Positions 10,345 through 33,634 of a stretch of 64,000 nucleotides of DNA are shown here, piece by piece (within the stretch, counting starts at the first letter, position 1; every line of letters begins with the position of its first letter). The stretch is from Herpetosiphon giganteus (GTDB taxonomy: Bacteria; Chloroflexota; Chloroflexia; Chloroflexales; Herpetosiphonaceae). Both the position numbers and the translations under genes were made by a program. The stretch spans positions 1-64,000 of the forward strand of contig NZ_JAFBCZ010000029.1 in the NCBI RefSeq assembly GCF_016907925.1, given 5' to 3'. The notes under the pieces are model-generated. The model was not told the origin of the DNA. It did not search any database and saw only the letters and a list, made by a program, of their open reading frames with translations.

Positions 10345-10377
10345 TTGCCGCCTATTGATGATGAACGAGGTGCTGTT

Positions 10378-11580: not shown

Positions 11581-11630
11581 ATTAGCCTCTTAGCTGACCC
11601 ATGCTACTACTCCAAGAATGGAGGATGATC

Positions 11631-12478
11631 GTGAGTAAGCGTCGTACAGTTCCTGCGCCAAAAATGGTTTATTGCCCTCTTTGCAAGGAAGCAATTCAAC
11701 ATAATCGTTTTCACTTGCATATTGAGCGGTATTGCGGATTTATTGTCAATGCGTCTCAGCATACAAATGCTGTTGCTTGCCCCTATTGCCAACAAGCTTT
11801 TCCGGCGCAACGGCTTCGTGCCCACTTTTAGCGGGCTGTGGCAAAACCACTGCCGAATTGCGTCCTGTAGATTCAATCCAATGTCCCGATTGTGGGGTCA
11901 GTATTCTTCAAAAGCGCTTAGCGAAACATCAGCGCAAATGTCCAGCCCGCCGACCAGATAAACCTGCTCTTCAGCCTGAACAAGCTGAGGCGCGTTCGCT
12001 GATTTGCCCTGACTGTCAAACAACCATTCTTCGGAAGCATTTTGATCGACATCGGCACGAGCGTTGCCCGCGACGAGCAATGCAAGCAACAGCAACGCTG
12101 ACTGAGGAAACAAGAACCCTCGAGAAGTGTCCAGATTGTGGTCTGATCATGAGTTCGCATTTAGTAGCGAATCACCGACAGCAGCATGCGCGTAGTCGTA
12201 AGGGGCAATCGGTTGAACTTGTAACCTTGCCGCCGACACCTGCGATTGCTGGTGATACCCGCCCACGCACCAAAGAAGGGTACGTCATTGAAACCTGTTC
12301 GACATGCAGGAGGCGGGTTTGTGTGGTTGAAGGCCCAAATACGTGGTACGAATTTAATATTGTTGCTAATATGAGAGCCGATCGGCATGTGTGTGATGGT
12401 GAATATTATGGCTATCGTGAATTTATTTTCGGGACGCGCCATGCCAATTACGATCGCAAAAACCGTAAAAAACGTTAA
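11631..12478 (+). pseudogene. zinc-knuckle repeat protein with a frameshift
   Basis: GTG 11631 lies 6 bases after GGAGG. The first frame encodes two Cys2-His-Cys-like units (starting CPLCKEAIQ and CPYCQQAFP) and stops at TAG 11829-11831, just after RLRAHF. The next frame continues with three further units (CPDCGVSIL, CPDCQTTIL, CPDCGLIMS) and a C-terminal domain containing CSTCRRRVC, ending at 12478. Removing TA from CACTTTTAGCG would restore the exact H-x3-C spacing of the neighbouring units; a -1 slip would also join the frames. The protein would be about 282 residues. It ends 30 bases before drmA. Whether this is a real mutation, programmed frameshifting or a sequencing error cannot be decided here. 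No canonical slippery heptamer is present. Confidence 0.7.
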
Positions 12479-12511
12479 GCTCGGCTGTTAGTTGATAGTT
12501 GAGGAGCAATG

Positions 12512-15500
12512 ATGGCTGAATCTGTGCTGCCCCCACCCCATCCATTTACCATTCGTGATGAGCTTGAAAGCCTTATTCTGCGCGATTTGCTTGGCCCTGC
12601 GGGCGGCGAGCAGGAAGAAGTGCATGAAATTAGCGTGCGTGATCGCTATTTGGTTGGCATGTTAGCCCCGCGTAAACAGCAAATTCTGCCAGAATTACAC
12701 GACGATCTTGAGCGTAGCGCCCTAACCAGCGACGAGCCACCGCTTGATGTTGGCACAACCCAAGCGCCATCGATGTTTCCTTCGTCGATGGGCTTAACTT
12801 GCTCGGTCAGCCCGCACGCTGAAACCCTCTTGGTAAGCATGACGTGGGGGAAATATCAACGGATTAGCCAAGAAACTGCCGATGGCAACAGCACGCGAAT
12901 CTGGCAACGCGAACCACGCGGCGGTAGTTGCCAGCTTGCGCTTCAGCCAGGCACTCATACTTGGCAACCAGACCCAGACGAACCGCATGTCCAAGGTCGG
13001 GCGGTTGTGCGCCAACGGGCTGAAGGCTGGAGCGTTAGTCTTTTTTTACATAATATGCAAGATGAGCCACAGCGCATGCGTGATAGCGCTTGGATTTTTC
13101 AACCACAGATTCGGGTAACTGATCCTGCTGGTGCGCCAATTTTCCGCCAACGGATGCGAGCTACGCTGCCAAGCGATCGCGAGGCGCAAACGGTGGCCAT
13201 GCGCTATCGCAGCGTGGTTGAGTTTGCGGTTGGGCATGGCGTGAGCGTGCAAGCTACCCGTGATTCGGCGCAGCCGCTGTGGGCAACCATGCTTGAAACG
13301 ACAGTTATTCCCTCTGCTGATGTCCCAGTCACCACCGAGCCAAGTCATGCAGAAGCGCCCGAACTTGCCCACTTGGTCGTTGATATGGATACGTTGAGCC
13401 GCACATCGATGGGCCAGTTTGCAGCAGCTTTGCAACCACTGTGTCAGGCCTATGCGCGTTGGATTACAACCCAAACTGGGCGCTTAACCACTGACCCAAG
13501 CCTTGCACCATGGGATGATGTTGCGGCTGATACGGTTCGCCAGTGGCAGCAAGCCTTAACCCGCATGCAAGCGGGCATCGAGCTGCTTGATCGTGATCCG
13601 CAGGCTGCTGAGGCGTTTCAATTTGCCAATCAGGCCATGGCGCGGCAACGCATGCAAAGCTTGTATGCAGAGGCGCGGCGGCGGGGCCAAACGGTCACCA
13701 GAGAAACCTTTGATCAGCCGCACTATCGCTCGTGGCGCGCCTTTCAACTTGGCTTTTTCTTGCTCAACTTGCCGGGATTAACCGTCCTGACCCATCCTGA
13801 TCGGGCTGCAAGCTCTGAAGCCTTGGCGGATTTATTGTGGTATCCGACTGGTGGCGGTAAGACCGAGGCCTACCTTGGCTTGACCGCCTATACCTTGGCA
13901 ATTCGGCGCTTGCAAGGCGTGGTTGCTGGCCGTTCGGGTATGGATGGCGTAGCGGTGATTATGCGCTACACGTTGCGCTTGCTGACCTTGCAACAGTTCC
14001 AACGCGCCAGTGCCTTGATTTGTGCCTGCGAGACCTTGCGGCGCGAAGCGGCGGCCCAAGGCGATCAGCGTTGGGGCACGACTCCGTTTCGGATTGGGCT
14101 TTGGGTTGGGCAGCGCACAACGCCGAATACAACTACCCAGAGCAAAGAAGTGTTGAAAACCCAACATCGGGGTGGTTATGGCAGCTTTGGCGCAACCGGA
14201 TCGCCAGCCCAACTGACCAATTGCCCGTGGTGTGGCAGCGCCATTGAGCCAGGCCGTGATATTAGTGTTAACGAAGCTCGTGGTCGAACGCTGATTTATT
14301 GTGGCGATCCACGGGGCGAATGTCCATTTAGTCGGCGTAATGCCAACTATGAAGGCTTGCCAGTGGTTGTGGTCGATGAAGAAATTTATCGGCGTTTGCC
14401 AGCGCTGATTATTGCCACGGTTGATAAATTTGCCCAATTGCCATGGAATGGCCGCACCCAGATGTTGTTTGGCCATGTTGATCGCTATTGTGAACGTCAT
14501 GGTTTTGGCTCGCCTGAACTTGGCGACGAAAGCGCTCATCGGGCATTGCCCAACGAAGGCTTGCCCGCAGTCAGTGTGCGCTCTCATGGCCCTTTACGGC
14601 CCCCCGATCTGATTATTCAAGATGAATTACATCTCTTGAGTGGCCCGCTGGGAACGCTTGTTGGCTTATATGAGACCGCGATAGATCGGCTGTGTACATG
14701 GACGGTGCAGCAGCAAGCGGTGCGCCCCAAGGTTATTGCCTCGACCGCCACTGTTCGGCGCGCCGATCATCAGGTGCATGCAGTATTTGTGCGCAAATTA
14801 GCAATTTTTCCGCCGCCAGGCTTTGATGCCAACGATAGCTTTTTTGCCATGGAACGGTCAATTAGCGCCAGCACGCCTGGCCGTCGCTACCTTGGCATTT
14901 GTGCGATTGGCAAGCGTCAAAAAGCTGTTTTAATTCGGGTGTATGTGGCGCTCTTAGCCGCAGCCCAAACCTTATATGAGCGCTATGGCGAAGCTGTCGA
15001 TCCGTGGATGACCCTTGTTGGCTATTTTAATGCAATGCGCGATTTGGGTGGGGCGCGGCGCTTGGTTGATGATGATATTCGCACGCGGCTCGGCAAAATG
15101 AGCCAGCGCGGCTTGGCCAATCGGCGGTCGCCCAGGGTCGAAGAATTAACCTCACGCAAAAGCGCCGAAGATATTCCAGTCTTGCTTGATGCCTTGGAAA
15201 TTCCGTTTCGGACTCAGCCAACGACCAAGCAACCACTTGATGTTGTGTTAGCGACCAATATGTTGTCGGTTGGGGTCGATGTTAAGCGGCTTGGGGCGAT
15301 GGTGGTTAATGGGCAACCAAAAACAACCGCCGAATATATCCAAGCGACCAGTCGGGTTGGGCGCAATACCCCTGGCTTGGTGATAAGCATCTTAAACTGG
15401 TCGCGACCCCGCGATTTATCGCACTATGAACAATTTGAGCATTATCACGCCACCTTCTATCAACATGTCGAGGCAATTTCGGTTACACCGTTTGCAGCGC

Positions 15501-15958
15501 GAGCCTTAGATCGCGGCTTAGCAGCGGTTTTGGTCAGCCTGATTCGGCTGTATGGCCATACCTACACCGAAAATTTGCAGGCTGGCCATATCGATCGGGA
15601 GAATCCCGTAGTCGAGGCAATGATTAAGGTACTAACCGAGCGAGCTGAGTTGGTAACGGGGCAAACTGGAGTCGCAAACCATGTGCATGCCGAGATCAAT
15701 ACACGGCTTGATGATTGGTTGAACAAAATTCACTATCGCCATGCAGGGGTGCGGCTTGGGTATCAGGGCAAGAATGATGGCCAAACCGAAGGCTTACTGC
15801 ACATGCCGAATGCCGACAAATGGGGCTTGTTCACCTGTCTCAATTCGCTGCGCGATGTCGAGCCAACCACCAATTTATTGTTGCATGATCATGGGTTTGA
15901 GCAAGATAGTTTGCGTCCGTGGGCGGGGGCGCTTGGACAGGCGGAGGATGGCGCATGA
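12512..15958 (+). CDS. drmA: DISARM helicase-like protein DrmA
   Basis: SF2-type helicase-like protein of about 1148 residues and the largest core DISARM subunit. Walker A YPTGGGKTE is at about residues 444-452, the DELH box of IIQDELHLL at 704-707, the motif III-like ASTAT near 748, and the motif VI QATSRVGRN near 943. A zinc-ribbon-like insert (CPWCG and further cysteines) occupies about 571-606. DrmA forms a complex with DrmB and threads or senses incoming unmethylated DNA. Two ATGs overlap the start, at 12509 and 12512; AGGAG at 12502-12506 gives better spacing to 12512. The stop overlaps the drmB start by four bases (ATGA), showing translational coupling. Confidence 0.92.
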   Translation: MAESVLPPPHPFTIRDELESLILRDLLGPAGGEQEEVHEISVRDRYLVGMLAPRKQQILPELHDDLERSALTSDEPPLDVGTTQAPSMFPSSMGLTCSVSPHAETLLVSMTWGKYQRISQETADGNSTRIWQREPRGGSCQLALQPGTHTWQPDPDEPHVQGRAVVRQRAEGWSVSLFLHNMQDEPQRMRDSAWIFQPQIRVTDPAGAPIFRQRMRATLPSDREAQTVAMRYRSVVEFAVGHGVSVQATRDSAQPLWATMLETTVIPSADVPVTTEPSHAEAPELAHLVVDMDTLSRTSMGQFAAALQPLCQAYARWITTQTGRLTTDPSLAPWDDVAADTVRQWQQALTRMQAGIELLDRDPQAAEAFQFANQAMARQRMQSLYAEARRRGQTVTRETFDQPHYRSWRAFQLGFFLLNLPGLTVLTHPDRAASSEALADLLWYPTGGGKTEAYLGLTAYTLAIRRLQGVVAGRSGMDGVAVIMRYTLRLLTLQQFQRASALICACETLRREAAAQGDQRWGTTPFRIGLWVGQRTTPNTTTQSKEVLKTQHRGGYGSFGATGSPAQLTNCPWCGSAIEPGRDISVNEARGRTLIYCGDPRGECPFSRRNANYEGLPVVVVDEEIYRRLPALIIATVDKFAQLPWNGRTQMLFGHVDRYCERHGFGSPELGDESAHRALPNEGLPAVSVRSHGPLRPPDLIIQDELHLLSGPLGTLVGLYETAIDRLCTWTVQQQAVRPKVIASTATVRRADHQVHAVFVRKLAIFPPPGFDANDSFFAMERSISASTPGRRYLGICAIGKRQKAVLIRVYVALLAAAQTLYERYGEAVDPWMTLVGYFNAMRDLGGARRLVDDDIRTRLGKMSQRGLANRRSPRVEELTSRKSAEDIPVLLDALEIPFRTQPTTKQPLDVVLATNMLSVGVDVKRLGAMVVNGQPKTTAEYIQATSRVGRNTPGLVISILNWSRPRDLSHYEQFEHYHATFYQHVEAISVTPFAARALDRGLAAVLVSLIRLYGHTYTENLQAGHIDRENPVVEAMIKVLTERAELVTGQTGVANHVHAEINTRLDDWLNKIHYRHAGVRLGYQGKNDGQTEGLLHMPNADKWGLFTCLNSLRDVEPTTNLLLHDHGFEQDSLRPWAGALGQAEDGA

Positions 15959-17811
15959 ACAATCCAAACCTTAGTGTTGGCGATATTCGGCCAAGCCAAG
16001 TTGTTCAGAGTTTTGGCATTGGCTCGTTAATTGATTTGCCGCATCTTTCGGTGATGGTCTTAGGTTTAGATGATTGGGTGGTGGATAGCAGAAGTGAGGT
16101 GAGCGAAGCACGCTTGCTAGCGGCAGTTCAAGCTGAACTTGGCAGTCAAGTGCAGCGGCTGATGCATCCGCCAGTTGAGACGACAGCGAGTTCGGGCATG
16201 GTCTATTCGGGCACGCCGTTGGTTGGGGTTCCCGTCGCAACCTTTCCGCGCTGGATGGTTTGCCCACTCTGTCGTCAGTTGCTCGCGATTGAAAGTTCGT
16301 TGGTGCAGCTGAAGACCGATCCGGTGCGGCCTGATCGGGCGCGCTATGTTCACGCAAATTGTAGCAAGGCCAAAGCCCCGCCAACGATGGTTCCGGCGCG
16401 GTTTTTAGCGGGCTGTGAGCATGGCCACCTTGATGATTTTCCGTGGAGCTACTTTGTGCATGGCCAGCAGGTTGGCTGTGCTGGGGTCTTGCGCATCCTC
16501 GAAGCTGGCGTTACTGGTGAAGCGGCAGAAATCTATATCGAATGCGATGGCTGCCACCATGGCACTGCGGGCAAATCGCGCCGCCCGCTCTCCGATGCCT
16601 TTGGCGAAAAAGCGCTGACCAGCTTGCCTGCCTGTCGTGGTCGCCATCCGCATGTTCGGATGTTTAGTGATGAGCCATGTTTGAAGCCGCTCAAAACGCT
16701 GGCGCTTGGGGCTTCGAATACCTGGTTTGGGGTGATGGCATCGGCTTTATCGTTGCCTCAAGCAGTCGATCCGGTTGCCAAAATTGTCGAGGAGCATTGG
16801 CTCCAATTCAATCGGGCAACCTCGATCAACGATCTGGAGATGATGCGGCGCTTTAATGTGATTCCGCCGTATCCAACAATTACAGATGCTGCTTTTTGGG
16901 CTGCGATCGAGGCCCGTCGTCAAGGGCAGAGCATTGAGAACCCAAAAAGCTTAAAAACGCCAGAATGGCAGACCCTACGCCAGCCGTTGCAAGCGCCGAG
17001 TTCAGGCCATTTTCGGGCTGTGCCAACTGGCGTACCCGAAGGCATGGCGGGCATGATCCAGCAAGTTGTATTGGTAGAACGCCTGCGCGAAGTGCGGGCA
17101 CTGTTGGGGTTTACCCGCATTCGCGCTTTTGGCGATCTTGAAGAGACGACCAGCGACGATCAAGCCATGGTTGGGCTAAGTCGAGGCAAACCAACGTGGG
17201 TTCCGGCAACCGATGTCTATGGTGAGGGTATTTTCTTGGAGTTTGACGAGGCTGCGATCCAACGCTGGTGTCAGCGGGCTGCTGTTCAGCTGCGGCAACG
17301 TCAATTTCAAGCAGCCCATCGGACATGGCGCAGCCAACGGCGGCTTGATCCGAATCAGGGCTATCCTGATATTCGCTATACCTTGCTGCATAGCTTAGCG
17401 CATGCCCTAATTCGCCAATTGGCGGTTGCCTGTGGCTATGCCATGGCGAGTTTGCGCGAGCGGATTTATGCTTTAGAACCGACAGCTGATGATGGCCCAA
17501 TGGCTGGGATTTTGATCTATACCGCCGCCGCTGATAGTGAAGGGACTTTAGGCGGCTTAGTCCAGCTTGGTCAGCCGGATACCCTTGGCTACCATCTGCG
17601 GGCTGCCTTAGAAACCTTGCAAATCTGCGCCTCCGATCCGCTCTGTGCTGATCATGAGCCACAAACCGAGCCTGGTTTATTACATGGCGCTGCTTGTCAT
17701 GCCTGTTTGTTTTTGCCTGAAACATCGTGTGAACGCGGCAATAAGTATCTGGATCGCTCGCTCGTTATTGCAACGGTCGAACGAACTGATTTGGCATTTT
17801 TTGAGGAGTAA
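15955..17811 (+). CDS. drmB: DISARM DUF1998 protein DrmB
   Basis: A 618-residue DUF1998-containing protein, partner of DrmA in the DISARM DNA-binding complex. The start ATG overlaps the drmA stop (ATGA), with GGAGG at 15942-15946. The N-terminal part holds a CPLC zinc pair (C103, C106) and GCEHGHLDDFPW, typical of the family. The C-terminal third has LHSLAHALI, LIYTAAADSEGTLGGL and a cysteine cluster (CASDPLC, then CHAC and a further Cys) that likely binds zinc. Its length agrees with known DrmB. It is followed after 3 bases by drmC. All residues expected of the family that I can recognise are present, so the gene appears intact. Confidence 0.92.
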   Translation: MNNPNLSVGDIRPSQVVQSFGIGSLIDLPHLSVMVLGLDDWVVDSRSEVSEARLLAAVQAELGSQVQRLMHPPVETTASSGMVYSGTPLVGVPVATFPRWMVCPLCRQLLAIESSLVQLKTDPVRPDRARYVHANCSKAKAPPTMVPARFLAGCEHGHLDDFPWSYFVHGQQVGCAGVLRILEAGVTGEAAEIYIECDGCHHGTAGKSRRPLSDAFGEKALTSLPACRGRHPHVRMFSDEPCLKPLKTLALGASNTWFGVMASALSLPQAVDPVAKIVEEHWLQFNRATSINDLEMMRRFNVIPPYPTITDAAFWAAIEARRQGQSIENPKSLKTPEWQTLRQPLQAPSSGHFRAVPTGVPEGMAGMIQQVVLVERLREVRALLGFTRIRAFGDLEETTSDDQAMVGLSRGKPTWVPATDVYGEGIFLEFDEAAIQRWCQRAAVQLRQRQFQAAHRTWRSQRRLDPNQGYPDIRYTLLHSLAHALIRQLAVACGYAMASLRERIYALEPTADDGPMAGILIYTAAADSEGTLGGLVQLGQPDTLGYHLRAALETLQICASDPLCADHEPQTEPGLLHGAACHACLFLPETSCERGNKYLDRSLVIATVERTDLAFFEE

Positions 17812-17814
17812 TCC

Positions 17815-18618
17815 ATGCTGGCGAGATCGTTGCAGACTGAACTCTATCGTTTGCTCCAAGCTGTGCCGACCGCCTTTATTCCGCAGATTGCCCGGCTCTT
17901 GGCGGCTTTGGATGCTGCACCTGATGCACGTGGCCAAGCCCAACTGCTGGCTGCATTGCCTGCCAATGATGCGTTGCGCCAGGCAGTTGCGCGCCTGCTG
18001 ACATGGTGGTGGCATGATTCTGCCGCGTATTCTGGGTTGCGCCTGAGCGATGCGCTCACCACAGGCGCGTATATTTATGCCAAAGAGCGGGCGCAATCGC
18101 AGCTTGATTTGGTCTGGACTGGGCCGGCAAGTCGCGAAGCAGTTCGCCAAACGACCCAAGCCTTGCTCAAGGTGATTCATAGTGCCCAAACAAGTTTGTT
18201 GCTCATGGCCTTTGCGATCTATGATATTGATCCAATTTTAGCTGAATTGGGGCAAGCACTTGCTCGTGGAGTCAGGATCGCCTGGATTATCGAACGCTAT
18301 GATGGCCATCAAACCCAGCCGCATGCCTTTCGGCTTCCTGGGTTACAGGCACTCCAACATGCTAATTTTAAGTTCTATGAATGGCCACTCGATCAACGCT
18401 CACGCACTGCTGAAGATCGCTATGGTGTGATGCATGGCAAGTGTGCGATTGCTGATGGGCGGCTTGCGTTGATCTCGAGTGCAAATTTTACCCGTTATGC
18501 GCTGCACGATAATATTGAGGTTGGTGTGCTGATCAATCATCCGACGCTGCCCGCAACCCTTGCCCGGCATATTCAGCAATTGATCGCGCAGGGCATTTTT
18601 CAACCGATCCAGCGTTAG
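17815..18618 (+). CDS. drmC: DISARM phospholipase D-like protein DrmC
   Basis: A 267-residue PLD-superfamily protein, the third core DISARM gene. It carries one HxK(x)4D motif, H207-G-K209 with D214, followed by SSANFT, the usual PLD arrangement. A nuclease role is inferred from the family, although DrmC has been reported dispensable in some DISARM systems. The N-terminal 100 residues are helical. GAGGAG sits 7 bases before the ATG and overlaps the end of drmB, so the drmABC genes form one transcript. A 10-bp GC-rich hairpin lies 27 bases after the stop and probably ends the transcript. Confidence 0.9.
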   Translation: MLARSLQTELYRLLQAVPTAFIPQIARLLAALDAAPDARGQAQLLAALPANDALRQAVARLLTWWWHDSAAYSGLRLSDALTTGAYIYAKERAQSQLDLVWTGPASREAVRQTTQALLKVIHSAQTSLLLMAFAIYDIDPILAELGQALARGVRIAWIIERYDGHQTQPHAFRLPGLQALQHANFKFYEWPLDQRSRTAEDRYGVMHGKCAIADGRLALISSANFTRYALHDNIEVGVLINHPTLPATLARHIQQLIAQGIFQPIQR

Positions 18619-21385: not shown

Positions 21386-24300
21386 TTACTGCTGGTCGTT
21401 GTTTTGAGCCATTTCATGCTCCGCGAGCAGCTGCGGGTTGGGCAAAAAGCCTTGTAAATGCAAGGGTGCTGGGCCAAAACCAGCCCTAATCACTGCGTCG
21501 CGATAGCTCAGCGCTGCTTCAACCTCAACCAATCCCCTCGTCAAAGGTAGCGTTGGATCTGCTGCCCATAACAGGGCTTCGAGCTGACAACTCGCGGCAG
21601 CATCGGGCACAATCTCGGCCAGAATTCGCTCGCGCACGGTTTGGTCGCCAAGTGGCAGATCGATTGTGCGCTGGCTTGGCCCGCAGGCCAACTGTCCACC
21701 GCCAACAATCAGCACATCGCCACGCGTTTGCATGCGCGCAATCGCGCGCTTGGGGTCAAGGCATGGCGGAAACGAATCATCGACCAGAATCGTGCCTGCG
21801 TGCAAGCGCTCAACCTCGATAATGCCCGCCGTGCTGGTGGCCGCAACAATGATTTGGGCTTGATACACGGCCTCGGGCACATCGCTCGCGGCTGTAACAA
21901 TCTCGATCGAGCCTGTATAGCCGGTTGTTTGCCGAATTTGCGCCGCCAAATCGACCAGCCGCTGCTGATTGGCTGCGGTATCGCAGAGCACCAACGAGCG
22001 TGGATGCGGCAAGCTGCGCAAGATAACCTGCAAGACTGATTGGCCAATTGAACCAAGCCCAAGCATTGCCAAATCGCTGTCTGCGAGCTGTCGCCTGCTG
22101 GTCTTGAGCGCAGCTTCGAGGGTTTGGCTCACTGCAACCACGGTTGTCGCATGGCCGGTGGTTAATGCTGGCCGTGCTTGTTGGTCGCTCTCTAGTGTTC
22201 GCAACACCCCAAAGCCATAGCCCGTCAATGCTGGCAACATCCCAGCCAGCGAGACGCAGCGCGCGCCCCGCGCTTGAGCGAGCAGCATGCTAGCGGCAAT
22301 CGCACTTTCGAGATCGGCGGCATGCTCTGGCCGTAGCTCCTCTGCAAACCAAGGCAAACACAGCATGGCCGAAGTGCCAATTGGGGTCTGAAGCAGTTCA
22401 ACCCAACGCGGCTGCCCATCGGCAAATAGCAACTTGCGCAGTTGTTCGCGAATTGTTGACGCAGGGCCTTTGAGGCCGAGGAGCGCGGCGATGCTGCTGC
22501 TGGGCGGCAAATAGCCAATTAATGCTGCATCTAAGGGAGCAGTTTGCACGTCGTGCTGGCGATTAGCAAATTGAATCATGCTGCTGGCACTGTGGCTTGG
22601 TTGGGTAATTAGCAGCTGAATATCGGCGAGCATGCCAGCTAACACATGCTGGAGCATTGCAGCATCTAGCTTACTTGGGGCTGCTTGCAGGCTCAGCCGC
22701 AACTCGCCATTGGCAGCGCGGGCGGCAAACAGCAACTCGGTTGCGCCGAGCGGCGGTTGAATTTCGGTTTGCGAGTTGGCCCAATCGAGCGTGAGGGTTT
22801 CACTGCTGAGGGTTCCTAGCGCATCAAAATCGAGAAAGGTGAAGAAGAATTGTGCTCCCGTCGCAGTTATGGCTGCGTTGCCGTTATTAGGGCCAATCAG
22901 GCGCGCGATCTCGCTTGGGGCCAGCGCATGCTGATAGGCGTTGCGAAAGGCCTGCGCGACTGGGATTAATAAAGCCTGTGCCGACTTAGCAGCCTGATGG
23001 CTGAAACGAATTGGCAGCGCGGTCGCAAAACAGCCAAATATTCGCTCAATATCGGGCAGGGCTTGGTCGCGGCCAGCATGGGCAGTGCCGATCACAAGGT
23101 CATCAACGCCAGTTAATTGGCGCAGTTGATGAATAAACACGCTCAACAGCACCAGATAGGGCGTTAGGCCCACTGCTGCTGCAACGTGGCGGAGTTGGCC
23201 GAGAATTGTTGCTGGCAGCACATGGCTCTCAAGCAACGGCGCATTTGTTTGCGCTGGATTGCGTGCTTGTAGCAGTGGGCGCTGATAGGCTTGGCGAAAT
23301 ATGGCGCGCCAATAGCTTGCCGCCGAAGCATTGTTTGATTGTTGAATAAGATTGACATAATCTTGAAAGGTTGAGCGTAACCCTGGCAGCTTTGGGGTTT
23401 TGCCAGCCACAAGTGCATCATACAGCTGAAGCAATTCTTGGCCAAAAACCCATGCGCTCCAACCATCGCCAATAATATGATGGGCTGCGATCAGCCAGAT
23501 ATGGCGCGTTGGCGCGAGTTGCAGCACCCGCATTCGCAGCAGCGGCAATTGCTCAAGTTCAAAGCGTTCTGCCTGTTCTGCATGCCAATAATGCTCGATC
23601 AGCTGCGTTGCATTCGCCCCAGCCGCCAACGCTGGCAGCAAGTCGTTGAAGCTGATTTGGATTGGTTCAGCGTAGACCTCGACTTGTTGGCGCGGCGGGC
23701 GTTGCGCGACCAACATTCGCGTTCGCAACATGGGGTGGCGCTGTACGAGCATGTTCAAGGCTTTCTGAAGCAGGCTTCGATCGAGCGGGCCATTGATTGC
23801 TAGCCGCGCGCACCACGTCGTTGGTGTCGCAGGATCGAGCGTTTCGGTCAGCAGAAAGCCAATTTGGGCTGGGGTCAGCGCAAAACTTCCATGTTCAGTT
23901 TGAGCCAAATGATGAATTTGCTCGGGCTGCTGATTGCTATTTGCTGCATCTAAAGCTTGGGCAAAGCTGGCGAGCGTGCTGTGTTGATACAAGGTAGCCG
24001 CTCGTGGCAGCACTGGCACGCGGCCTTCCAAGCGGGTCAACACTTGCAGTAGCAGCAGCGAATCGCCGCCCAATTCAAAGAAATCAGCATCGCGATTGAC
24101 GCTTGGCAGTTTCAGCACCGTTTGCCAAATTTCGGCAACCAGCAGCTCGCTTGGTGTTTGCGGCAGCGCGCCATGCTCGACGCTGCTTGGCGCAGGAATT
24201 GGTAATTGGCGCAGTTGACCACGATCGATCTTGCCTGAACTGGTAGTTGGTAGGGTCGCTAATTCAACAAAACGCTGCGGAATCATCTGCGGCGGCAAGC

Positions 24301-27300
24301 GCTTTGCCAACCAGCGCCGCAATTCAACCTCGCTTGGCAAGCTTGCCTTGGTCTTCACATAGGCGATGAGGGTCGGTTGCTCAGCGTCAGTTGTGAGACA
24401 AACGGCGGCCTTGGCAATCGCGGGGTGCTCATGCAGCGCCGCTTCAATTTCGGCTGGCTCAATGCGATAGCCACGCAGCTTGATTTGCTCATCGGCGCGA
24501 CCGATAAACACCAAATTGCCATCCGCAAGCTCGCGCACCAAATCGCCAGTGCGATACAAGCGCGCGCCTGAACCCAATGGATCGGGCACAAATTGGCGTG
24601 CTGTGAGATCGGGCCGCCCAAGGTAGCCCGTCGCCAGCCCAATTCCACCGATATACAACTCGCCAGTGGTCAACGCTGGGCAGAGATTGCCCTGCTGATC
24701 GAGCACCCGCGTGATAGCTCCGCTGATCGCTTTGCCAATCGGAATCTGGGTGCTCGCCGCGCTAGGCCGTTGTTCGACCAGATAGGCGGTTGCGTTGATC
24801 GTGGCCTCGGTTGGCCCATAATGATTCACAATTTGCTGGTGCTGACCGTACATATCTATCCAGCGGCGCACATAGCTGGCGGGTAGCGCTTCGCCACCAA
24901 TGCCAATTAAGCGTAGCTCGGCCAAGGCTGGGGGCGCTTGACCCTCGGCGATTCTGCGCTCAATTGTCGTCATGACGCTTTCCCACAGCGCTGGCACCGA
25001 ACGCCAGATCGTTGGGCGTTCCCGCTCAAGCGCTTCGAGTAAACCAATTGGATCACGCACAACCAGCGGCGCAAGCATAATGACGCTGCCGCCAGCAGTG
25101 AGCGGGCCAAGCATTTGGCTAATTGCAGCATCAAAACTTAAGGCAGCGGTCTGGAGTAGGCGATCGTTGGGGCCATAGCCAAAGCGTTCTACCAGCCAAG
25201 CAAGATAATTGGCAAGTGAGCGCTGGCTAATTGGTACGCCTTTTGGCGCTCCCGTTGAGCCAGAAGTAAACATAACATACGCTAGATCGTCTGGTTTGGG
25301 GCTGGCGATCTCGGGCGTTAACGTTGGCTCCAACGGCGCTTGCAACAGCTGATCAAGATCAAGCAACGTAAGCTGGTTTGCTGCGCTGGCTTGCAGTTGG
25401 TGGGCTAGCTCGGCAGTTTGCTGGTGGTAGAGCAACAACTGTACGGATACCTGATTAAGCTGGGTTTCAAGTTGACGTAATGGGTAACTCGTATTCAAGC
25501 CCAGCCATGGCACGCCCGCCCAGAGTGCGCCCACAATCCCAACAACACTAGCGATTGTTGGCTGGGTAAGCAAGCCGACAGGCTGATTTGGCCGCGCACC
25601 ATGCGCCACCAACCAGCGTGCAACGTGACTCGCGCTAGTTGCTAGTTGAGCATAGGTCAGGGTTGCGCCATCGGCCTTGACCGCGATTCGCTCCGGCTGG
25701 CGTATGCATTGGGCAAGAATGCGGGCTGGAGTCAGCAAGCTTGGCTTAATCTGCGGCAGCGATTCTGGCTCAACAGGCTGGAATGCTTGCTGGATTGTGG
25801 TTGGTTGCCCAAGCGCCGCCAGTTCCTGTTGATAGCTATCTGCAAGCTGTTCGATGGTTTGGGTTTGAAATGCTGCCGTTGCATACATCCACGTGGTTTG
25901 CAGCTGGCCATTGACTTCGGAAATAAGCAACGAGAGTTTGGTTGTTGCGGTGGCCGTACTGGCCGTCAGCACTTCGATGGCAATTGGGCAATCGGTGGGC
26001 AAACTCGCAGGAAAACGGGCCAGACTGAACGACGCTGCACCCGGCGCACGCGGCCCTGTTTGCTCGCGAACTCCCGCCATTCGCGCTAAATCGAGCGCCG
26101 CAACCGTAGCATGCTGTTGAATTTGTGTCCATTGCTCGCGAATGACGATCGCGAGATCGGTGATCTGCTGGTTGGCTGTAAGCTCCAAGGGCAAGGGCAG
26201 ATGGTCGGCGCAACAGCCAACGATCTGCTCGATTCCCGTTAAGCGAATGCCCCGCCCATGCTCGGCCACGTTGATCGCGATGGCATTGGTTTGGCTCCAA
26301 GCGGCCAATTGACGGGCATAAATTGCCAACAATAGGTGAAAGAGCGAAACATCGATGCTGGCTGCATGTTGGCGCAGTTGCCTGCTCGTTGTTGCAGCCA
26401 ATTGGCGATAGACGCTGCCGATTGGATGTGCGCTTGCTTGCTCCGCAGGGGCATCATTTGGCAGCGACCAGGCGAGGGCGGCGCTATGCTGGCGCAACAG
26501 GGTTTGCCACCAAGCACGATCAATGTTTGCTTGCGGGCTGGCGGCTATTTGCAAGGTTTGAATGACGTATTGTTCAAAGCTCGTGGTTAGTGCAGGCAAC
26601 GCAATTGGCTGCTTTTGAAGCAGCTTGGTATAGACCTGCCAAAGCTCATCAAGCACAATGCTGGTGCTCCAGCCATCAGCAATACTGTGGTGCAGCAGCA
26701 GATACAAATGCCAATGCTTGGCTCCATCGCTGCATAACACAACCCGAAACAGCGGCGGGTTAAGCAGATCAAATTGATAATGCGCCAAGCGTTGTTCGAA
26801 TGCAGCTCGATTAGTTGGAGCCTCGCGTTGCTCAAACCACAGGCTAGGTGGCAGTAGATTTGGATCGATGAGCCGTTGGCGTGGTTCAGTTTGGGCCTGA
26901 TCAACCGGCTCGAATTTGGCCCGCAGCATAGGATGCCGCGCCACCAAATAGCTGAACGCAGCCTGCAAAACCGTAGGATCGAGCAAGCCCGCAATCTGCT
27001 GGCGAATCAGGGTAAAAGCTGGGCTTTCTGGATACAACTGATGGCCAACATAAAAGGCAATTTGGGCTGGGGCAAGCGGAAATGTTGGTTCATTGCTGAT
27101 TTGCGGAATGGTCTGCGGAACAGTATCAACAATTTGAGTTGCAGGTCGCTCAGCGTTGAGCAGGGTACTCAAATGCACCGAAAGCTCGCGAATTGTCTGA
27201 AACTCAAAGAATAGCGTTAATGGCAAAACCGTGCCGGTGACTTGTTCAAGCTGCTTAACCAAATCGACAGCTTGCAGCGAATCAAGGCCCAGCGCCAGAA

Positions 27301-30300
27301 ACGAAGCATCAACCGCAATCTGCTCGGCTGGCAATTTGAGGGCTTTGGCAACCAAGGCCTGAATTTGCTGGCTAAGCTCGCTTGAATTCAGGGTTGCCAC
27401 CGATGATTGTTGGCGCTGTGGTTGGCTGGTTGCTTGGGGCTGAGGGTTGGTTTCAGCAGGAGCCACAATCACAATCTGGCTCTGATCTGCATACAGCACT
27501 TGCTCGAAGGCATGCAGCGCTTGGCTGGGTTTCAGCGGTGGCAAGCCTCGTTGGCGCAGATGCTCGACCAACATTGGGGTTGCCGCCAAGCCGATTCCAT
27601 CCCATGCGCCCCAATTCAACGCGGTCATGGCCCGACCTACTTGGCGCTCGCTGGCGGCAAAAGCATCGAGAAAGGCGTTGGCCGCCACATAATCGGGAAT
27701 GCCACCGCCAAGGCCCGGCACAACCGCCGCGATCGACGAGCAATTCAGAAAGAAGGCTGGTTTTTGCTGATGACGCTCAAGCGCCCGCGCCAAGAGCCAT
27801 GTGCCCTTAACTTTTGGCTCAAGTACCGCCGCAAATTGTTCAGCGCTTTTGGTATGTAGCGAAGCAACATCGGCAATGCCTGCTGCTTGGATTACGCCAA
27901 AAATTCCGGTTTCGGTTGCTGCTAGCTCAGCGATAAGCTGCTCGACCTCGTGGAAATTGCAAATATCAACTTGGCGATAGTGCGCGCTTGCCCCCACGGC
28001 TTCAAGCTCCGCAAGTAAGGTTTTGCGTTTTTGATCAAGCGCCGAGCGGCCAAGCAGGATTAATCGTGGTTGGTTGTTGCTGGCCAAATGGCGCGCCAAC
28101 TGTGCGCCAACGCCGCCTGCACCACCAACAATCACAATGACGCGGCCTGGCGTTTCGGCTGGTTTGCTGCTCGTTGTGATCACTGGCAAGGCTGTTAATT
28201 CACGGGTTAAGCGCTGGCCGCCACGCCACGCCAGCACGCCGTTGCTTGGTTGTGCTTGTAATTCATGGGCAAGCGCCTGGAGTTGCGCCGCGGCCTCAGC
28301 ATTCAGCGCCAGATCAAGCGCCACGCATGGAATCCCAAGGTGCTGATCGGGCAAGGTCGCCGCCAAACCTGCAATTAATGCTTGTTCTGGGGCAAGTTGC
28401 TCTTGCTGCTCAATTGGGTAGGCTCCGGCAGTAACAACCCACAAACCAGCTGGCTGAGTTGCTTTGGGCTGGTCTAGCAGCAATTTGCTGAGTGCTAAGA
28501 GGTCTAACACGCCAGCAATCGAGGGCCGATCGGATGTTGCTGCCCAATCAGCCAACACAATCAGTCCATAGCGTTGCGGGTTGAATGTTGCCAGCTGCGT
28601 TGCCAGCGATTCGCTGCTGACGAGCACGCAGGTTTGATTGTTGGCGTTGAGCGTTGCTGCAAGCTGCTTGGCCAGCCCATGATCTGGATTGGCGACGAGA
28701 ATCCAGTTCTCAATTGGCTGTTCAGCTGTGGCTGGGAGTGGAGCTGGTTGCCAAACCAGCTGTTGCAATAAGGCTGACGCAAACGCTGGTTGCGAGGCTT
28801 CAGCGTTGCGCAAATCGCTTAGGTCGAGCAATATCTGGCCATCGGCGGCCTTGAGTTGCAAGCGATAGCCGTTTGCGGTCGCTTGCAAGCTGACTGTGCT
28901 GATCTGCTGGCCGTGCAAATGGGTTGCTTGGTCGGCAGCTGGGCGTAGTTCAAGCGCTTGCTCTTTGAGCAGCAGCCGTTGGGCAGTTGGCAACCAATGG
29001 CGCTCCCGCGCAAAGGGATAATTTGGCAAGCGCACGCGGTGGCCAATTCCGTTCGCCAGTGCTGGCAAATTGAAATCAACGCCATGGACCCACAAGCGCC
29101 CGATTGCGTTGCGAATTGTGGCGTAATCATCCTCGCCACGGTGCAGCAGAGCCTCAACACTCCAGTCAGGCTCGTGGTTTGCCAGCATTTGGCGTGCAAA
29201 AGCTGCCAAGGTGCTGCCTGGCCCGATTTCAATAAAGCTATCGAAGCCTTCAGCAATCAGCCGTTCGAGCGCAGGCGCAAAACGCACAGGCTCAACCACT
29301 TGGGCGGCCCAGTAATCAGCGTCGAGTTTCGCAGGGCCGCGCATCCATTCTACGCTGACGGTGCTCAACAATGGAATTGCTGGATTAGCTGGCTCAAGCG
29401 CACGCGCGGCCTCGGCGATGGCTTGGACAGCGGGTTGCGTCAAGGATGAGTGATAGGCCATGCTCTGATTAACGATGATTGCATGAACACCATCACGCTC
29501 TAGCTGCTCTAGGGTGCGTTTGACTGCGCTGCTCGTGCCTGAGATAACCACTTGATTTGGGGTATTGTAGGCAGCGATGCTTAGTGGCGCTATTTGTTGG
29601 GCCACCAGCGCCGCAACCAACGCTTCAGGTGCAAACACTGCTGCCATCATACCTGGCTCTGCCAAGCTTGCCATGAGTTGCCCGCGTGCTCGTGCTAGAC
29701 CCAAAACTGCCTCAAAACTGAGCACGCCTGCAATGCATGCTGCTGCCAGCTCGCCAACACTATGGCCTACAACTGCATCGGGCTTGAGTCCCCAACTCAG
29801 CACCAGCCGTGCTAACGCAACTTCAAAAGCAACCAGCAGCGGTTGGGTAACTTCAGTATCAGCTAACTCTGCATTTTTCACTTCAGCCGCAAAACACCAT
29901 TCAAGAAGGGTTCGACCTTTGATTAGGCCAAGTTGGGCGGAGGCTGCATCGAATGTAGCCTTAAACACTGCTTCTCGCTGGTAAAGCAGCGCCCCTTGTT
30001 GCGGATATTGCGCGCCTTGGCCTGCAAACATCAGCACTACTTTGCGCCGTTTGGTGACGAGCGGCCCAACTAGCAAGCGTGGTTCAGCAACGCCAGCGGC
30101 ATAATTCTCTAAGCTTGTGGCCACCGCTGCCAGATCAGCGCTGATGATGGCTGCCCGCTGAGCAAACACTTCGCGCTCTGCAAGACTGAAATACAAGTCT
30201 GCCAAACATAATGATTGATCAACTTGAATACGTTCAGCCAACCCAGCAGCAAGTTGGCACAATGCTTGTTCGTTGCACGCCGAAATGGGAATGAGCTGTA

Positions 30301-33300
30301 GCGTAGCCTCGCTGCTTTCAGCGACTGGCGCTGGCGGCGGCTCCTCAAGAATGATATGCGCATTCGTGCCGCCAAAGCCAAAACTATTGACTCCAGCGCG
30401 TAGTGGTTGCGGCCCCTGCCATACTTGAAGTGTCGTGTTAATCGCCATGCCAGCAGGCTCCAGTTCTAAGCGATGATTGGGCGTTGTATAGTGCAGGCTT
30501 GGCGGAATTTGGCGCTGCTGTAGCATCAAAATCACTTTGATCAGCGCAGGAATACCTGCGGCGTTGAGCAAATGGCCCAGATTGGTTTTGACTGAGCCAA
30601 TGAAGCGTGGCGCTGCGTTACTCGCAGGCGGAAAGATTTGAGCCAATGAGCGCGCCTCAGTTGGGTCGCCAATTGCTGTGCCTGTGCCATGAGCCTCGAT
30701 ATACGAAACACTCGCCGGATCGATTTGGGCCTCGGCGTAGGCTTGGCGCAGGGCTTCTGCTTGGAGCAACGGATTGGGAGCCATTGGGCTGAGCGAGCGG
30801 CCATCATTATTAATTGCCGAGCCGCGAATCAATGCCAGCACGCTATCGCCATAATGTTGGGCCTTGCTGAGCCGTTCAATAATCAAAATCCCAGCCCCTT
30901 CACCAACCACAATGCCATCGGCTGCATCATCGAAGGCCCGACAACGCCCGCTTGGTGAGAGTGCGCCAGCCCGCTCGAGCAGCTGAAATGGCGTTTCAGT
31001 CAGGTTGAGGTTTATCCCGCCAACAATCGCCAAATCGCAATCGCCGACCAAGAGGCTAGTGCGCGCCATGTGTAGCGCAACCAACGTCGATGAGCAGGCG
31101 GTATCGATCGCTAGCGCTGGGCCGTTCAAATCAAGACAGTGGGCGATCCGTCCGGCAATCAGGTTGCGCATATTGCCAGTTGCCGTCGATGGGTGTAATT
31201 GTTCGCTATTGGCGACGAGCGGCAGCAACAGCTCTTGATACGATGCCTCGCCAACGCCGATAAATACGCCAACCCGCCGCTGTTCCCGCCGCTGGGCGGC
31301 ATAACCAGCACGCTCTAGGGCATGGTAGGCCAATTCCAACAGGATGCGCTGTTGCGGGTCCATCGCGGCAGCTTCAGCAGGGCTAAGCTTAAAAAAGCTG
31401 GCATCAAAATAGCTCACCGCATCGAGTTGGCTGCCCCAAGCTTGGCCTTGTGGCGCAGGGCTGGTGAGGCCATCGAGCCGTTGGCGAGGCAGTTGCCCGA
31501 CGCTATCCACTCCAGCCACTAAATTGGCCCAAAATTCTTCAGGCGTTGCCGCATCAGGCAGTCGACAGGCCATGCCAATAATTGCAATTGGCTCAGGTGT
31601 GGTGCTAGGCTGGCGCTGGATTGGCTCCTGTGCTACATTTTGATTTGACATAATTGAAGTTTGTGCCTGCAACCACGCAGCGAGGCCAGCAGGGGTTGGC
31701 CGTTGACGCAGCGCTGCAACATCAGGCTCCACATTAAAGCGATCGCCAAGCGCCGCCAACAGATCCATTAATTGCAATGAGGTAGCGCCAAGATCAAAAA
31801 CTGAATCGTGCAGCCCAATCTGACTGGGATCAATACCGATGATCTGACTGCATAGCGTGATGATTGTTTGTTCGATGCTGGCAGGAGCCATGCTGGATGC
31901 TGGCTGGTTGTGTTCGGCCAATGCCGTTTGGACGGCGGCAATCAGGCTGCTAAACTCGCCTGCTTCATAGCGTTGACGCAACTCTGTGCGCCTGATTTTG
32001 CCGCTGGTTGTGCGCGGAAACTGGCTGGCGCGCAGCGGCACAATCTCAATCGCAGTCGTGCCGGTGGTGCGGCGCATGGCACGAATCAGCTGATTAATCG
32101 CTGGCAGGGCTGATTGCCAAGCATTCAGCGCCAAAAAAACGATGACGCGCTCTTGGCGATTGCCAAGGCCGCCAACGCCACAGACGGCGATTCGTTTTGG
32201 ATTCAGCCCTTTGATGCTGGTTGCAAGGGCTTCAAGGTCGGGGGCATGGTGCTTGTGACCATTAACAATCACAATTTCCTTGGCGCGCCCAGTGATGACC
32301 AAGCGTCCGTTGTGCAGAAAACCAAGGTCGCCAGTGCGCAGCCAACCAGCACAAAATGCTGCCGCTGGATCGTTGCTGCGATAATAACCGCGCATCAACT
32401 GCGGCCCTGCAACCTGAATATGGCCAACATGGCCAGCAGCAAGCGGCTGATCAGCAGCATCGACGATTCGCACATGGCAATCAGGAATTGGCACGCCAAC
32501 ATCAACTAGCTCTAAATAGCGTGTTTGATCGTTTGAATTGGGCTGTTCAGTGACGAAACTCGCCCGCTCTTCGTGAATCAGAATCTGGCGATCAATCAGG
32601 TGAGTCTGCATGCCAGTGCCAAGCGGCGATAGCGTAACCCCAACACTAGCTTCAGCCAAGCCATAAACTGGCAACAAAGCTTGTGCCGCAAAGCCTGTCG
32701 CAGCCACATGGCTGAGAAACGCGCGACAACGCTCGGCCACAATTGGCTCTGCGCCAACAATCAACAAGCGCACACAGCTCAAATCAAGCCCAGCCAATTG
32801 TTCTTGCTTAACTCGTCTCGTTACTAAATCTAAGGCAAACGGAGCTGCTGTCAATAATGTGGCTCGATGGCGATGGGTCAGTTCTAGCCAGCTGGCTGGG
32901 CGGCGAGCAAAATAAAATTCATCAATTTTGACCTGTTTAATTCCAGCTGCCAGTGGCAACAAGTGAGCGGCAATCAAGCCCATATCGTGATAATAGGGCA
33001 TCCAACTGACGACGCAATCGTCGGCGTTGATTGCGCAGGCACTGCCCATTTGGCGCAAATTGGCCAGCAGCCCAGCGTGAGTTAGCTCGATGCCTCGTGG
33101 CTCGCCAGTGCTGCCCGATGAAAATTGCAGATAGGCGAGATCGCCTACTGCTGGTGATGTTGCCATCGCTGTGACGTTTGAGCGAAACAATTGAACTGTT
33201 GCAGTAGGCCATGGTCCAGCAAGCGCCTGCTGTTCGTGCTGCAACGGCGAAGATTGGGCTGCCAATGCCTCACCAACGGCGGCGCTAGCAAGTAACGCTG

Positions 33301-33634
33301 GTTGTTCAAGCGTCTGCCAGATTGCGCGAATTCGTTCTGGTTCGGCGGCCAGCGGGGCGGGAATCAATCCAGCGAGGATTGCACCCCAAAAGCCAGCCAG
33401 AAAATCGGCACTTGCTTCGAGCGCAATTAACAGCACTTGGCCTGCAACCAACCCATTGCGCCCTAGCTCCGCCGCGACTTCTTGTGCCGCTATATACAGC
33501 TCGCGATAGCTAATCGCCTGTTCGTGGTCAGCAGATGCCCGATGAATAATTACTTGGTTGGGTGTGGTTTCTGCGCTAGCTCGCAGCAGATCAGGCAGCG
33601 TCCGAATAGTGCGCGACAACAAATCAGCAACCAT
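21386..33634 (-). CDS. hybrid FAAL-PKS-NRPS megasynthase with AAR-like C-terminal reductase
   Basis: A single 4082-residue assembly-line protein; start supported by GGAG 8 bases upstream. Order by motifs: FAAL-like acyl-AMP ligase (about 1-575; FSSGSTGEPRG, HDMGLI); acyl carrier (Ser619); ketosynthase (about 680-1110; Cys847 in DTACSS, EAHGTGT, KTNLGH); acyltransferase (about 1200-1490; Ser1292 in GHSVGE); ketoreductase (about 1640-2050; GGAGGVG, Tyr near 1982); acyl carrier (Ser2119); condensation (HHSIADG near 2315); adenylation (FTSGSTGAPKG near 2785, FDA core); peptidyl carrier (Ser3192); second condensation (HHIIGDG near 3384); C-terminal reductase-like domain (about 3700-4060). That last domain has GLGSIG from 3859, LVDDSFPP and Cys3984 in GGGQLACG, matching cyanobacterial acyl-ACP reductase. 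The likely product is a fatty acid extended by one hydroxylated ketide and one amino acid, released as an aldehyde or alcohol. No PPTase or tailoring genes adjoin. Confidence 0.92.
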   Translation of the reverse strand: MVADLLSRTIRTLPDLLRASAETTPNQVIIHRASADHEQAISYRELYIAAQEVAAELGRNGLVAGQVLLIALEASADFLAGFWGAILAGLIPAPLAAEPERIRAIWQTLEQPALLASAAVGEALAAQSSPLQHEQQALAGPWPTATVQLFRSNVTAMATSPAVGDLAYLQFSSGSTGEPRGIELTHAGLLANLRQMGSACAINADDCVVSWMPYYHDMGLIAAHLLPLAAGIKQVKIDEFYFARRPASWLELTHRHRATLLTAAPFALDLVTRRVKQEQLAGLDLSCVRLLIVGAEPIVAERCRAFLSHVAATGFAAQALLPVYGLAEASVGVTLSPLGTGMQTHLIDRQILIHEERASFVTEQPNSNDQTRYLELVDVGVPIPDCHVRIVDAADQPLAAGHVGHIQVAGPQLMRGYYRSNDPAAAFCAGWLRTGDLGFLHNGRLVITGRAKEIVIVNGHKHHAPDLEALATSIKGLNPKRIAVCGVGGLGNRQERVIVFLALNAWQSALPAINQLIRAMRRTTGTTAIEIVPLRASQFPRTTSGKIRRTELRQRYEAGEFSSLIAAVQTALAEHNQPASSMAPASIEQTIITLCSQIIGIDPSQIGLHDSVFDLGATSLQLMDLLAALGDRFNVEPDVAALRQRPTPAGLAAWLQAQTSIMSNQNVAQEPIQRQPSTTPEPIAIIGMACRLPDAATPEEFWANLVAGVDSVGQLPRQRLDGLTSPAPQGQAWGSQLDAVSYFDASFFKLSPAEAAAMDPQQRILLELAYHALERAGYAAQRREQRRVGVFIGVGEASYQELLLPLVANSEQLHPSTATGNMRNLIAGRIAHCLDLNGPALAIDTACSSTLVALHMARTSLLVGDCDLAIVGGINLNLTETPFQLLERAGALSPSGRCRAFDDAADGIVVGEGAGILIIERLSKAQHYGDSVLALIRGSAINNDGRSLSPMAPNPLLQAEALRQAYAEAQIDPASVSYIEAHGTGTAIGDPTEARSLAQIFPPASNAAPRFIGSVKTNLGHLLNAAGIPALIKVILMLQQRQIPPSLHYTTPNHRLELEPAGMAINTTLQVWQGPQPLRAGVNSFGFGGTNAHIILEEPPPAPVAESSEATLQLIPISACNEQALCQLAAGLAERIQVDQSLCLADLYFSLAEREVFAQRAAIISADLAAVATSLENYAAGVAEPRLLVGPLVTKRRKVVLMFAGQGAQYPQQGALLYQREAVFKATFDAASAQLGLIKGRTLLEWCFAAEVKNAELADTEVTQPLLVAFEVALARLVLSWGLKPDAVVGHSVGELAAACIAGVLSFEAVLGLARARGQLMASLAEPGMMAAVFAPEALVAALVAQQIAPLSIAAYNTPNQVVISGTSSAVKRTLEQLERDGVHAIIVNQSMAYHSSLTQPAVQAIAEAARALEPANPAIPLLSTVSVEWMRGPAKLDADYWAAQVVEPVRFAPALERLIAEGFDSFIEIGPGSTLAAFARQMLANHEPDWSVEALLHRGEDDYATIRNAIGRLWVHGVDFNLPALANGIGHRVRLPNYPFARERHWLPTAQRLLLKEQALELRPAADQATHLHGQQISTVSLQATANGYRLQLKAADGQILLDLSDLRNAEASQPAFASALLQQLVWQPAPLPATAEQPIENWILVANPDHGLAKQLAATLNANNQTCVLVSSESLATQLATFNPQRYGLIVLADWAATSDRPSIAGVLDLLALSKLLLDQPKATQPAGLWVVTAGAYPIEQQEQLAPEQALIAGLAATLPDQHLGIPCVALDLALNAEAAAQLQALAHELQAQPSNGVLAWRGGQRLTRELTALPVITTSSKPAETPGRVIVIVGGAGGVGAQLARHLASNNQPRLILLGRSALDQKRKTLLAELEAVGASAHYRQVDICNFHEVEQLIAELAATETGIFGVIQAAGIADVASLHTKSAEQFAAVLEPKVKGTWLLARALERHQQKPAFFLNCSSIAAVVPGLGGGIPDYVAANAFLDAFAASERQVGRAMTALNWGAWDGIGLAATPMLVEHLRQRGLPPLKPSQALHAFEQVLYADQSQIVIVAPAETNPQPQATSQPQRQQSSVATLNSSELSQQIQALVAKALKLPAEQIAVDASFLALGLDSLQAVDLVKQLEQVTGTVLPLTLFFEFQTIRELSVHLSTLLNAERPATQIVDTVPQTIPQISNEPTFPLAPAQIAFYVGHQLYPESPAFTLIRQQIAGLLDPTVLQAAFSYLVARHPMLRAKFEPVDQAQTEPRQRLIDPNLLPPSLWFEQREAPTNRAAFEQRLAHYQFDLLNPPLFRVVLCSDGAKHWHLYLLLHHSIADGWSTSIVLDELWQVYTKLLQKQPIALPALTTSFEQYVIQTLQIAASPQANIDRAWWQTLLRQHSAALAWSLPNDAPAEQASAHPIGSVYRQLAATTSRQLRQHAASIDVSLFHLLLAIYARQLAAWSQTNAIAINVAEHGRGIRLTGIEQIVGCCADHLPLPLELTANQQITDLAIVIREQWTQIQQHATVAALDLARMAGVREQTGPRAPGAASFSLARFPASLPTDCPIAIEVLTASTATATTKLSLLISEVNGQLQTTWMYATAAFQTQTIEQLADSYQQELAALGQPTTIQQAFQPVEPESLPQIKPSLLTPARILAQCIRQPERIAVKADGATLTYAQLATSASHVARWLVAHGARPNQPVGLLTQPTIASVVGIVGALWAGVPWLGLNTSYPLRQLETQLNQVSVQLLLYHQQTAELAHQLQASAANQLTLLDLDQLLQAPLEPTLTPEIASPKPDDLAYVMFTSGSTGAPKGVPISQRSLANYLAWLVERFGYGPNDRLLQTAALSFDAAISQMLGPLTAGGSVIMLAPLVVRDPIGLLEALERERPTIWRSVPALWESVMTTIERRIAEGQAPPALAELRLIGIGGEALPASYVRRWIDMYGQHQQIVNHYGPTEATINATAYLVEQRPSAASTQIPIGKAISGAITRVLDQQGNLCPALTTGELYIGGIGLATGYLGRPDLTARQFVPDPLGSGARLYRTGDLVRELADGNLVFIGRADEQIKLRGYRIEPAEIEAALHEHPAIAKAAVCLTTDAEQPTLIAYVKTKASLPSEVELRRWLAKRLPPQMIPQRFVELATLPTTSSGKIDRGQLRQLPIPAPSSVEHGALPQTPSELLVAEIWQTVLKLPSVNRDADFFELGGDSLLLLQVLTRLEGRVPVLPRAATLYQHSTLASFAQALDAANSNQQPEQIHHLAQTEHGSFALTPAQIGFLLTETLDPATPTTWCARLAINGPLDRSLLQKALNMLVQRHPMLRTRMLVAQRPPRQQVEVYAEPIQISFNDLLPALAAGANATQLIEHYWHAEQAERFELEQLPLLRMRVLQLAPTRHIWLIAAHHIIGDGWSAWVFGQELLQLYDALVAGKTPKLPGLRSTFQDYVNLIQQSNNASAASYWRAIFRQAYQRPLLQARNPAQTNAPLLESHVLPATILGQLRHVAAAVGLTPYLVLLSVFIHQLRQLTGVDDLVIGTAHAGRDQALPDIERIFGCFATALPIRFSHQAAKSAQALLIPVAQAFRNAYQHALAPSEIARLIGPNNGNAAITATGAQFFFTFLDFDALGTLSSETLTLDWANSQTEIQPPLGATELLFAARAANGELRLSLQAAPSKLDAAMLQHVLAGMLADIQLLITQPSHSASSMIQFANRQHDVQTAPLDAALIGYLPPSSSIAALLGLKGPASTIREQLRKLLFADGQPRWVELLQTPIGTSAMLCLPWFAEELRPEHAADLESAIAASMLLAQARGARCVSLAGMLPALTGYGFGVLRTLESDQQARPALTTGHATTVVAVSQTLEAALKTSRRQLADSDLAMLGLGSIGQSVLQVILRSLPHPRSLVLCDTAANQQRLVDLAAQIRQTTGYTGSIEIVTAASDVPEAVYQAQIIVAATSTAGIIEVERLHAGTILVDDSFPPCLDPKRAIARMQTRGDVLIVGGGQLACGPSQRTIDLPLGDQTVRERILAEIVPDAAASCQLEALLWAADPTLPLTRGLVEVEAALSYRDAVIRAGFGPAPLHLQGFLPNPQLLAEHEMAQNNDQQ

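Follow-up and report, generated by a model that had tools for sequence, protein, structure and literature searches.

The single megasynthase gene of the window (the whole stretch of 64,000 nucleotides analysed, from contig NZ_JAFBCZ010000029.1 of Herpetosiphon giganteus) ends in a domain with the fold of cyanobacterial acyl-ACP reductase (AAR). This domain is a variant of a kind that has already been solved and has been proposed for terminal amidation, the TAD, a name that presumably stands for 'terminal amidation domain'. The favoured reading, which we hold at close to even confidence, is that a terminal release domain of TAD type, with the AAR fold and predicted to bind NAD(H), would capture the chain as a thioester on Cys4016 and release it in the TAD manner, a primary amide being likelier than a free aldehyde.

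The ORF reading of the window placed the FAAL-PKS-NRPS gene at 21386..33634 of the minus strand as one open frame of 4082 residues. Pfam and NCBIfam matches gave the domain order FAAL-ACP-KS-AT-KR-ACP-C-A-PCP-C, followed by the AAR-fold end domain, all on the minus strand. The loading domain, a fatty acyl-AMP ligase (FAAL; residues 20-565, 31940..33577), was recognized by a match to PRK09192 and ACP1 (31670..31879) by a PF00550 match at 31670-31870. They are followed by the ketosynthase with the active site DTACSS (30152..31594), the acyltransferase with GHSVGE (29078..30031), the ketoreductase (27599..28138), ACP2 (27179..27370), the condensation domain C1 with HHSIADG (25775..27082), the adenylation domain (24215..25711) and the PCP (23945..24157). 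A second condensation domain, C2 (22577..23887), fills the gap between the PCP and the release domain; its HHIIGDG motif is intact and its sequence is like that of ordinary C domains. The TAD-type release domain itself spans residues 3697-4075 (21410..22546). At the positions that we take to be the adenylation pocket, the window has D-A-S-R-I-I-H-I-N and the relatives mostly have D-A-R-S-V-V-L-I-N.

When the approximately 390 C-terminal residues were scanned alone, no Pfam family was found above its cut-off. An AlphaFold2 model of the release domain, built from 40 aligned sequences, had a mean pLDDT of 92.0 and a pTM of 0.91. The best PDB matches of the model were all five entries entitled 'TAD from Carmabin Biosynthetic Pathway' (9e4s, 9e4u, 9e4x, 9e50 and 9e56; 2025), with VIA Z scores of 48.0-48.9 at 27-28% identity, the top superposition (Z 48.9) aligning 373 residues with an rmsd of 2.3. 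Cyanobacterial AAR came next (Z 28.8-29.6, the highest value against 6jzu over 322 residues), and amino-acid dehydrogenases were third at Z ~14. A Foldseek search of the PDB was also run with the model; TAD and AAR match over the full length. The sequence comparisons gave the same order, with phmmer E values of 6.9e-46 for the carmabin TAD versus 2.7e-4 for AAR 6jzq, and hhalign probabilities of 100 (E 1.4e-65, 363 columns) and 96.6 (E 6.8e-10, 196 columns), respectively. The match to the AAR model TIGR04058 (E 2.3e-5) reached 23.9 bits and thus fell below the curated cut-off of 449.7. Among solved families AAR ranks second, far behind the carmabin TAD. The original prediction, that the synthase ends in an AAR-like domain instead of a short-chain-type reductase, was borne out as to the fold and the likeness to AAR, but the nearest family is another.

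That the domain is a usual SDR-type thioester reductase misread as an AAR is extremely improbable. Many NRPS lines release their products reductively and both families bind a dinucleotide, yet the AlphaFold2 model matches TAD and AAR from end to end, and no SDR-type thioester-reductase model was among the Pfam and NCBIfam matches listed at E values up to 10. The SDR assignment was rejected. The PDB structure matches listed for the model showed no SDR fold, though such a listing does not prove one absent.

The motifs TTGHATT, GLGSIG, LVDDSFPP and GGGQLACG start at residues 3825, 3859, 3950 and 3978, in the predicted order and with GLGSIG at the predicted place. The last of these contains Cys3984 (21683..21685, minus strand), which had been proposed to occupy the position of the AAR catalytic cysteine. 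Alignment and conservation contradicted this: the residue is cysteine in 12/40 aligned rows and in only 14/80 relatives, and the column is occupied by His in 8/8 cyanobacterial AARs. Cys3984 was therefore rejected as the nucleophile. The cysteine of the AAR motif FACFAE aligns instead with Cys4016 (21587..21589, minus strand), the predicted acyl-accepting cysteine and equivalent of AAR Cys294; the FACFAE cysteine is number 294 in two of the AARs (L121 and L124) and 295-296 in the other six, where the first residue is set differently. Cys4016 is conserved in all 40 aligned rows and in 79/79 relatives covering that position and, since it was in none of the locus search patterns, this conservation is not built in. 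In AAR, according to the available text of PMC7089970, Cys294 is the acyl-accepting residue and the acyl-enzyme is reduced by NADPH. The title of PDB 9e56 describes Cys2238 of the carmabin TAD as trapped as a disulfide with dephospho-CoA. If residue 1 of the construct is taken as 1905, the start of the 9e4u chain B range, the residue count suggests that Cys2238 is the counterpart of Cys4016. A Cys-thioester intermediate on Cys4016 is plausible from the alignments.

Several other residues distinguish the TAD type from the AAR type, all encoded on the minus strand. They are His3828 of TTGH (22151..22153; Asn in the AAR and PigE types), Asp3885 at the end of the second Rossmann strand (21980..21982), which is of the NAD(H) type, and Asp3952-Asp3953-Ser3954 of VDDSxP (21773..21781); the GLGSIG dinucleotide loop (residues 3859-3864) lies at 22043..22060. 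His3828, Asp3885 and Asp3953 were found in 25/25 window-type and PCP-TAD rows versus 0/16 AAR, AAR-like and PigE rows, and Ser3954 in 25/25 versus 1/16, whereas the Asn of TTGN or TSGN was present in 16/16 AAR-type rows. The 80 loci described below were found with patterns that included TTGHA and DDSxP, so the conservation of His3828, DDS and Cys3958 among them is partly by construction; TTGH and DDS were also invariant in 10 rows collected without such patterns.

The family tree, rooted at the midpoint, comprised 44 rows. From the 80 loci, 16 were entered into the tree and 39 into alignment A2 (40 rows with the window); L012, L013 and L015 were left out of later alignments, and L018 and L021 were unused. 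One starred side of the tree (27 rows, 100/99) held 18 rows of window architecture, 7 PCP-TAD rows including carmabin, and 2 stand-alone rows. The opposite side held 16 AAR, AAR-like and PigE-like rows and one long stand-alone row. The domain of the window belongs to the first side, that of the TADs; cyanobacterial AAR is on the other. The window architecture did not form one clade; PCP-TAD rows are nested within it, the forks are weakly resolved and several rows are long. Among the three stand-alone rows, L011 lacks the His and both Asp and retains only the Ser of the four residues. This TAD-like protein (430-aa frame, genome G358 of the same phylum) has neither Asp of the DDS motif, carries Ser in place of the Cys and is perhaps a degenerate partner. 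The genome of the window encodes a separate AAR-like protein (L002, C3:178949-179506, 694-aa frame) that branches off separately, close to AAR and PigE.

The genome scan gave 195 relatives, of which 80 were kept; they come from Herpetosiphon, Streptomyces, Micromonospora, Actinoplanes, Nonomuraea and other genera. A FAAL match was visible in 47/80 loci, though the fetched flank mostly stops short of the gene end, and L050 and L083 had no AT or FAAL match. All six members of the genus of the window among the matches listed carry the domain. Megasynthase-sized frames were found in 4/396 sampled genomes of the phylum of S. anulatus and a TAD-like match in 4/386 sampled genomes of the phylum of G400. 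Seven plasmid records matched; the one from Streptomyces fungicidicus (44%) carries a hybrid synthase of comparable size. Three pattern matches in viral contigs included no relative, and no relative was found in phage records. A stand-alone TAD-like gene on a Pantoea stewartii plasmid (L023, 7719-9008) lies within an NRPS cluster and adjoins a luciferase-like monooxygenase gene. Short (359-436 aa), weaker AAR/TAD-like frames (L149-L164) were seen in 22/396 sampled genomes of the phylum of S. anulatus, all of them genomes of 0.8-2.6 Mb.

The release domain of Herpetosiphon aurantiacus (CP000875) is 72% identical to that of the window. Table 6 of PMC3368417 (2011), in its available text, lists Haur_02147 of this species as PKS/NRPS locus 3, 12.3 kb, with its product given as unknown, and says nothing of a release domain. 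Haur_02147 is probably the orthologue of the window synthase, the locus tag having been matched by size, module count and position.

Apart from the synthase, no neighbor gene was common to the window and eight relatives within about 8 kb, and the pathway therefore seems to consist of this gene alone. Relative to the literature found, what is new is a single-gene line with the C-TAD arrangement that occurs in Herpetosiphon, Streptomyces and further genera. Elsewhere in the window, a class I DISARM-like defense locus (388-18618) consists of DrmMI (388-4503), DrmA (12509-15958), DrmB (15919-17811) and DrmC (17815-18618); between these lie an AbiL-like gene (8262-9560, minus strand) and the gene of a PDDEXK_4 protein (10345-11580). 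Two CHAT-domain proteins are encoded at 40003-41901 and 45203-48043, the second with TPR repeats.

Placement at the C terminus of an NRPS protein is shared by the window domain and the carmabin TAD. A PCP immediately upstream, the arrangement common among TADs, is not present in the window, where C2 intervenes; the stand-alone TAD relatives likewise have no upstream PCP. In 78/80 loci the domain just ahead of the release domain is a C domain, L058 and L079 being short frames without a C2 match. The HHxxxDG motif of C2 is intact in 76/77 aligned rows, the exception being L083, in which the first His is missing; two further rows lack the stretch. The conserved position and motif argue for a scheme in which C2 would off-load the chain with an external amine or hydroxyl, while the TAD-type domain oxidizes, reduces or gates a bound intermediate. 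This scheme is quite unlikely, given that no acceptor carrier protein follows C2, that C2 is missing from relatives in which the PCP adjoins the domain, and that no dedicated partner gene was visible in the neighborhoods compared.

In the favoured route of thioester capture and TAD-type release, as it may be read from the domain order, the FAAL would load a fatty acid, the PKS module would add one unit, presumably malonyl, and the KR would leave a 3-hydroxyacyl chain that C1 couples to a single PCP-bound amino acid. The acyl-aminoacyl chain would then pass to Cys4016 as a thioester, and the TAD-type domain would release it, in the likeliest case with a primary amide at its C terminus. The supply of nitrogen, or a redox-neutral cycle, may be governed by the cofactor, His3828 and Asp3953/Ser3954. 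The amide is favoured because the carmabin TAD is nearest by phmmer, VIA and hhalign, because the domain groups with the TADs in the tree and has His3828, Asp3953 and Ser3954 in common with them, because Cys4016 is conserved, and because the products of pathways with domains believed to amidate include amides. However, the NAD(H) site is invariant even though no net redox change is required to form a primary amide, and a reductase would be the simpler account; the identity to the carmabin TAD is only 27%, and a C domain parts the PCP from the TAD, unlike in HcaD, VatR and the carmabin-type relatives.

Reductive release as in AAR, PigE and TamH, in which the chain on Cys4016 would be reduced by NADH to a free aldehyde and possibly on to an alcohol or imine, is the leading alternative, somewhat less likely than the amide. 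The window domain retains the dinucleotide loop, the Asp fitting NAD(H) and Cys4016, all 40 members of alignment A2 match the PigE NCBIfam model, and the AAR family contains aldehyde formers: AAR itself with its Cys294 acyl-enzyme, and, in the available texts, the TR domain of PtTamH, which is NADH-specific and converts an ACP thioester to an aldehyde (PMC9594044), and PigE, which likewise makes an aldehyde from a thioester, with Cys296 (PMC8341465). On the other hand, VIA, the tree and hhalign all place the window domain nearer to TAD than to AAR or PigE, the AAR-type Asn is His in the window, the second Asp and the Ser of VDDS are not common to the AAR types, and the TIGR04058 score is far under its cut-off. 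The aldehyde of the original prediction is no longer the default, since the aldehyde-forming AAR, PigE and TamH domains are more distant from it than TAD is; the thioester proposed with it stands as plausible on Cys4016.

An unlikely variant of the amide route is a hidden redox cycle, in which the Cys4016 thioester would be reduced by bound NADH to an aldehyde, trapped by ammonia as a hemiaminal and oxidized to the amide by the same NAD+. C2 and the domain would then make up a C-TAD unit able to off-load the chain unaided, within a pathway of one gene that extends over several phyla. If true, this would reconcile the predicted aldehyde with the amides of TAD pathways.

The release step sets the functional group of the product of a megasynthase, and an AAR-like end alone does not imply an aldehyde. 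Because Streptomyces and Herpetosiphon can be cultured, the one-gene family makes a non-cyanobacterial target in which the predicted nucleophile, Cys4016, and the residues specific to the family could be mutated.

The release route had been thought undescribed for megasynthases. However, such end domains have been described for the vatiamide and hectoramide lines (PMC10949194, available text) and solved from the carmabin line. In that same text, HcaD (hectoramide B) and VatR (vatiamides) end in a PCP and a domain believed to off-load by terminal amidation, the mechanism and enzymology of which the authors called unstudied in 2024 while suggesting ammonolysis; the amide products named are the dragonamides, carmabin A and vatiamides E and F. 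The C-terminal amide of carmabin A is also given in the available text of PMC6164609. Neither a publication of the carmabin TAD structures nor an activity measurement of any TAD came up in the literature search; the amide assignment of TADs is believed from product correlation. By description, HcaD and VatR resemble the window synthase in that the last NRPS domain takes the place of a thioesterase and serves product release; they differ in being C-A-NMT-PCP proteins with the domain directly after the PCP. A relative 91% identical to the carmabin TAD, from a genome of the phylum of G400, belongs to a 1958-aa TubC-C-A-methyltransferase-PCP-TAD protein, an order as in HcaD.

AAR (PDB 6jzq, 6jzu, 6jzy and 6jzz) shares the fold and the aligned cysteine with the window domain, but it is free-standing and has a basic residue of the NADPH type, TTGN, and DGG in place of DDS. 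PigE and PtTamH belong to the AAR family and have the conserved Cys, and PtTamH uses NADH and an ACP thioester; they differ in being aminotransferase fusions, and the PigE-like rows form a separate tree branch with TSGN and DV motifs. The carmabin TAD has in common with the window domain the whole-domain fold, the dinucleotide site, TTGH, VDDSxP, a cysteine of the catalytic type and the C-terminal place in an NRPS. The window differs from it in sequence, in the C domain after the PCP and in uniting FAAL, PKS and NRPS in one protein.
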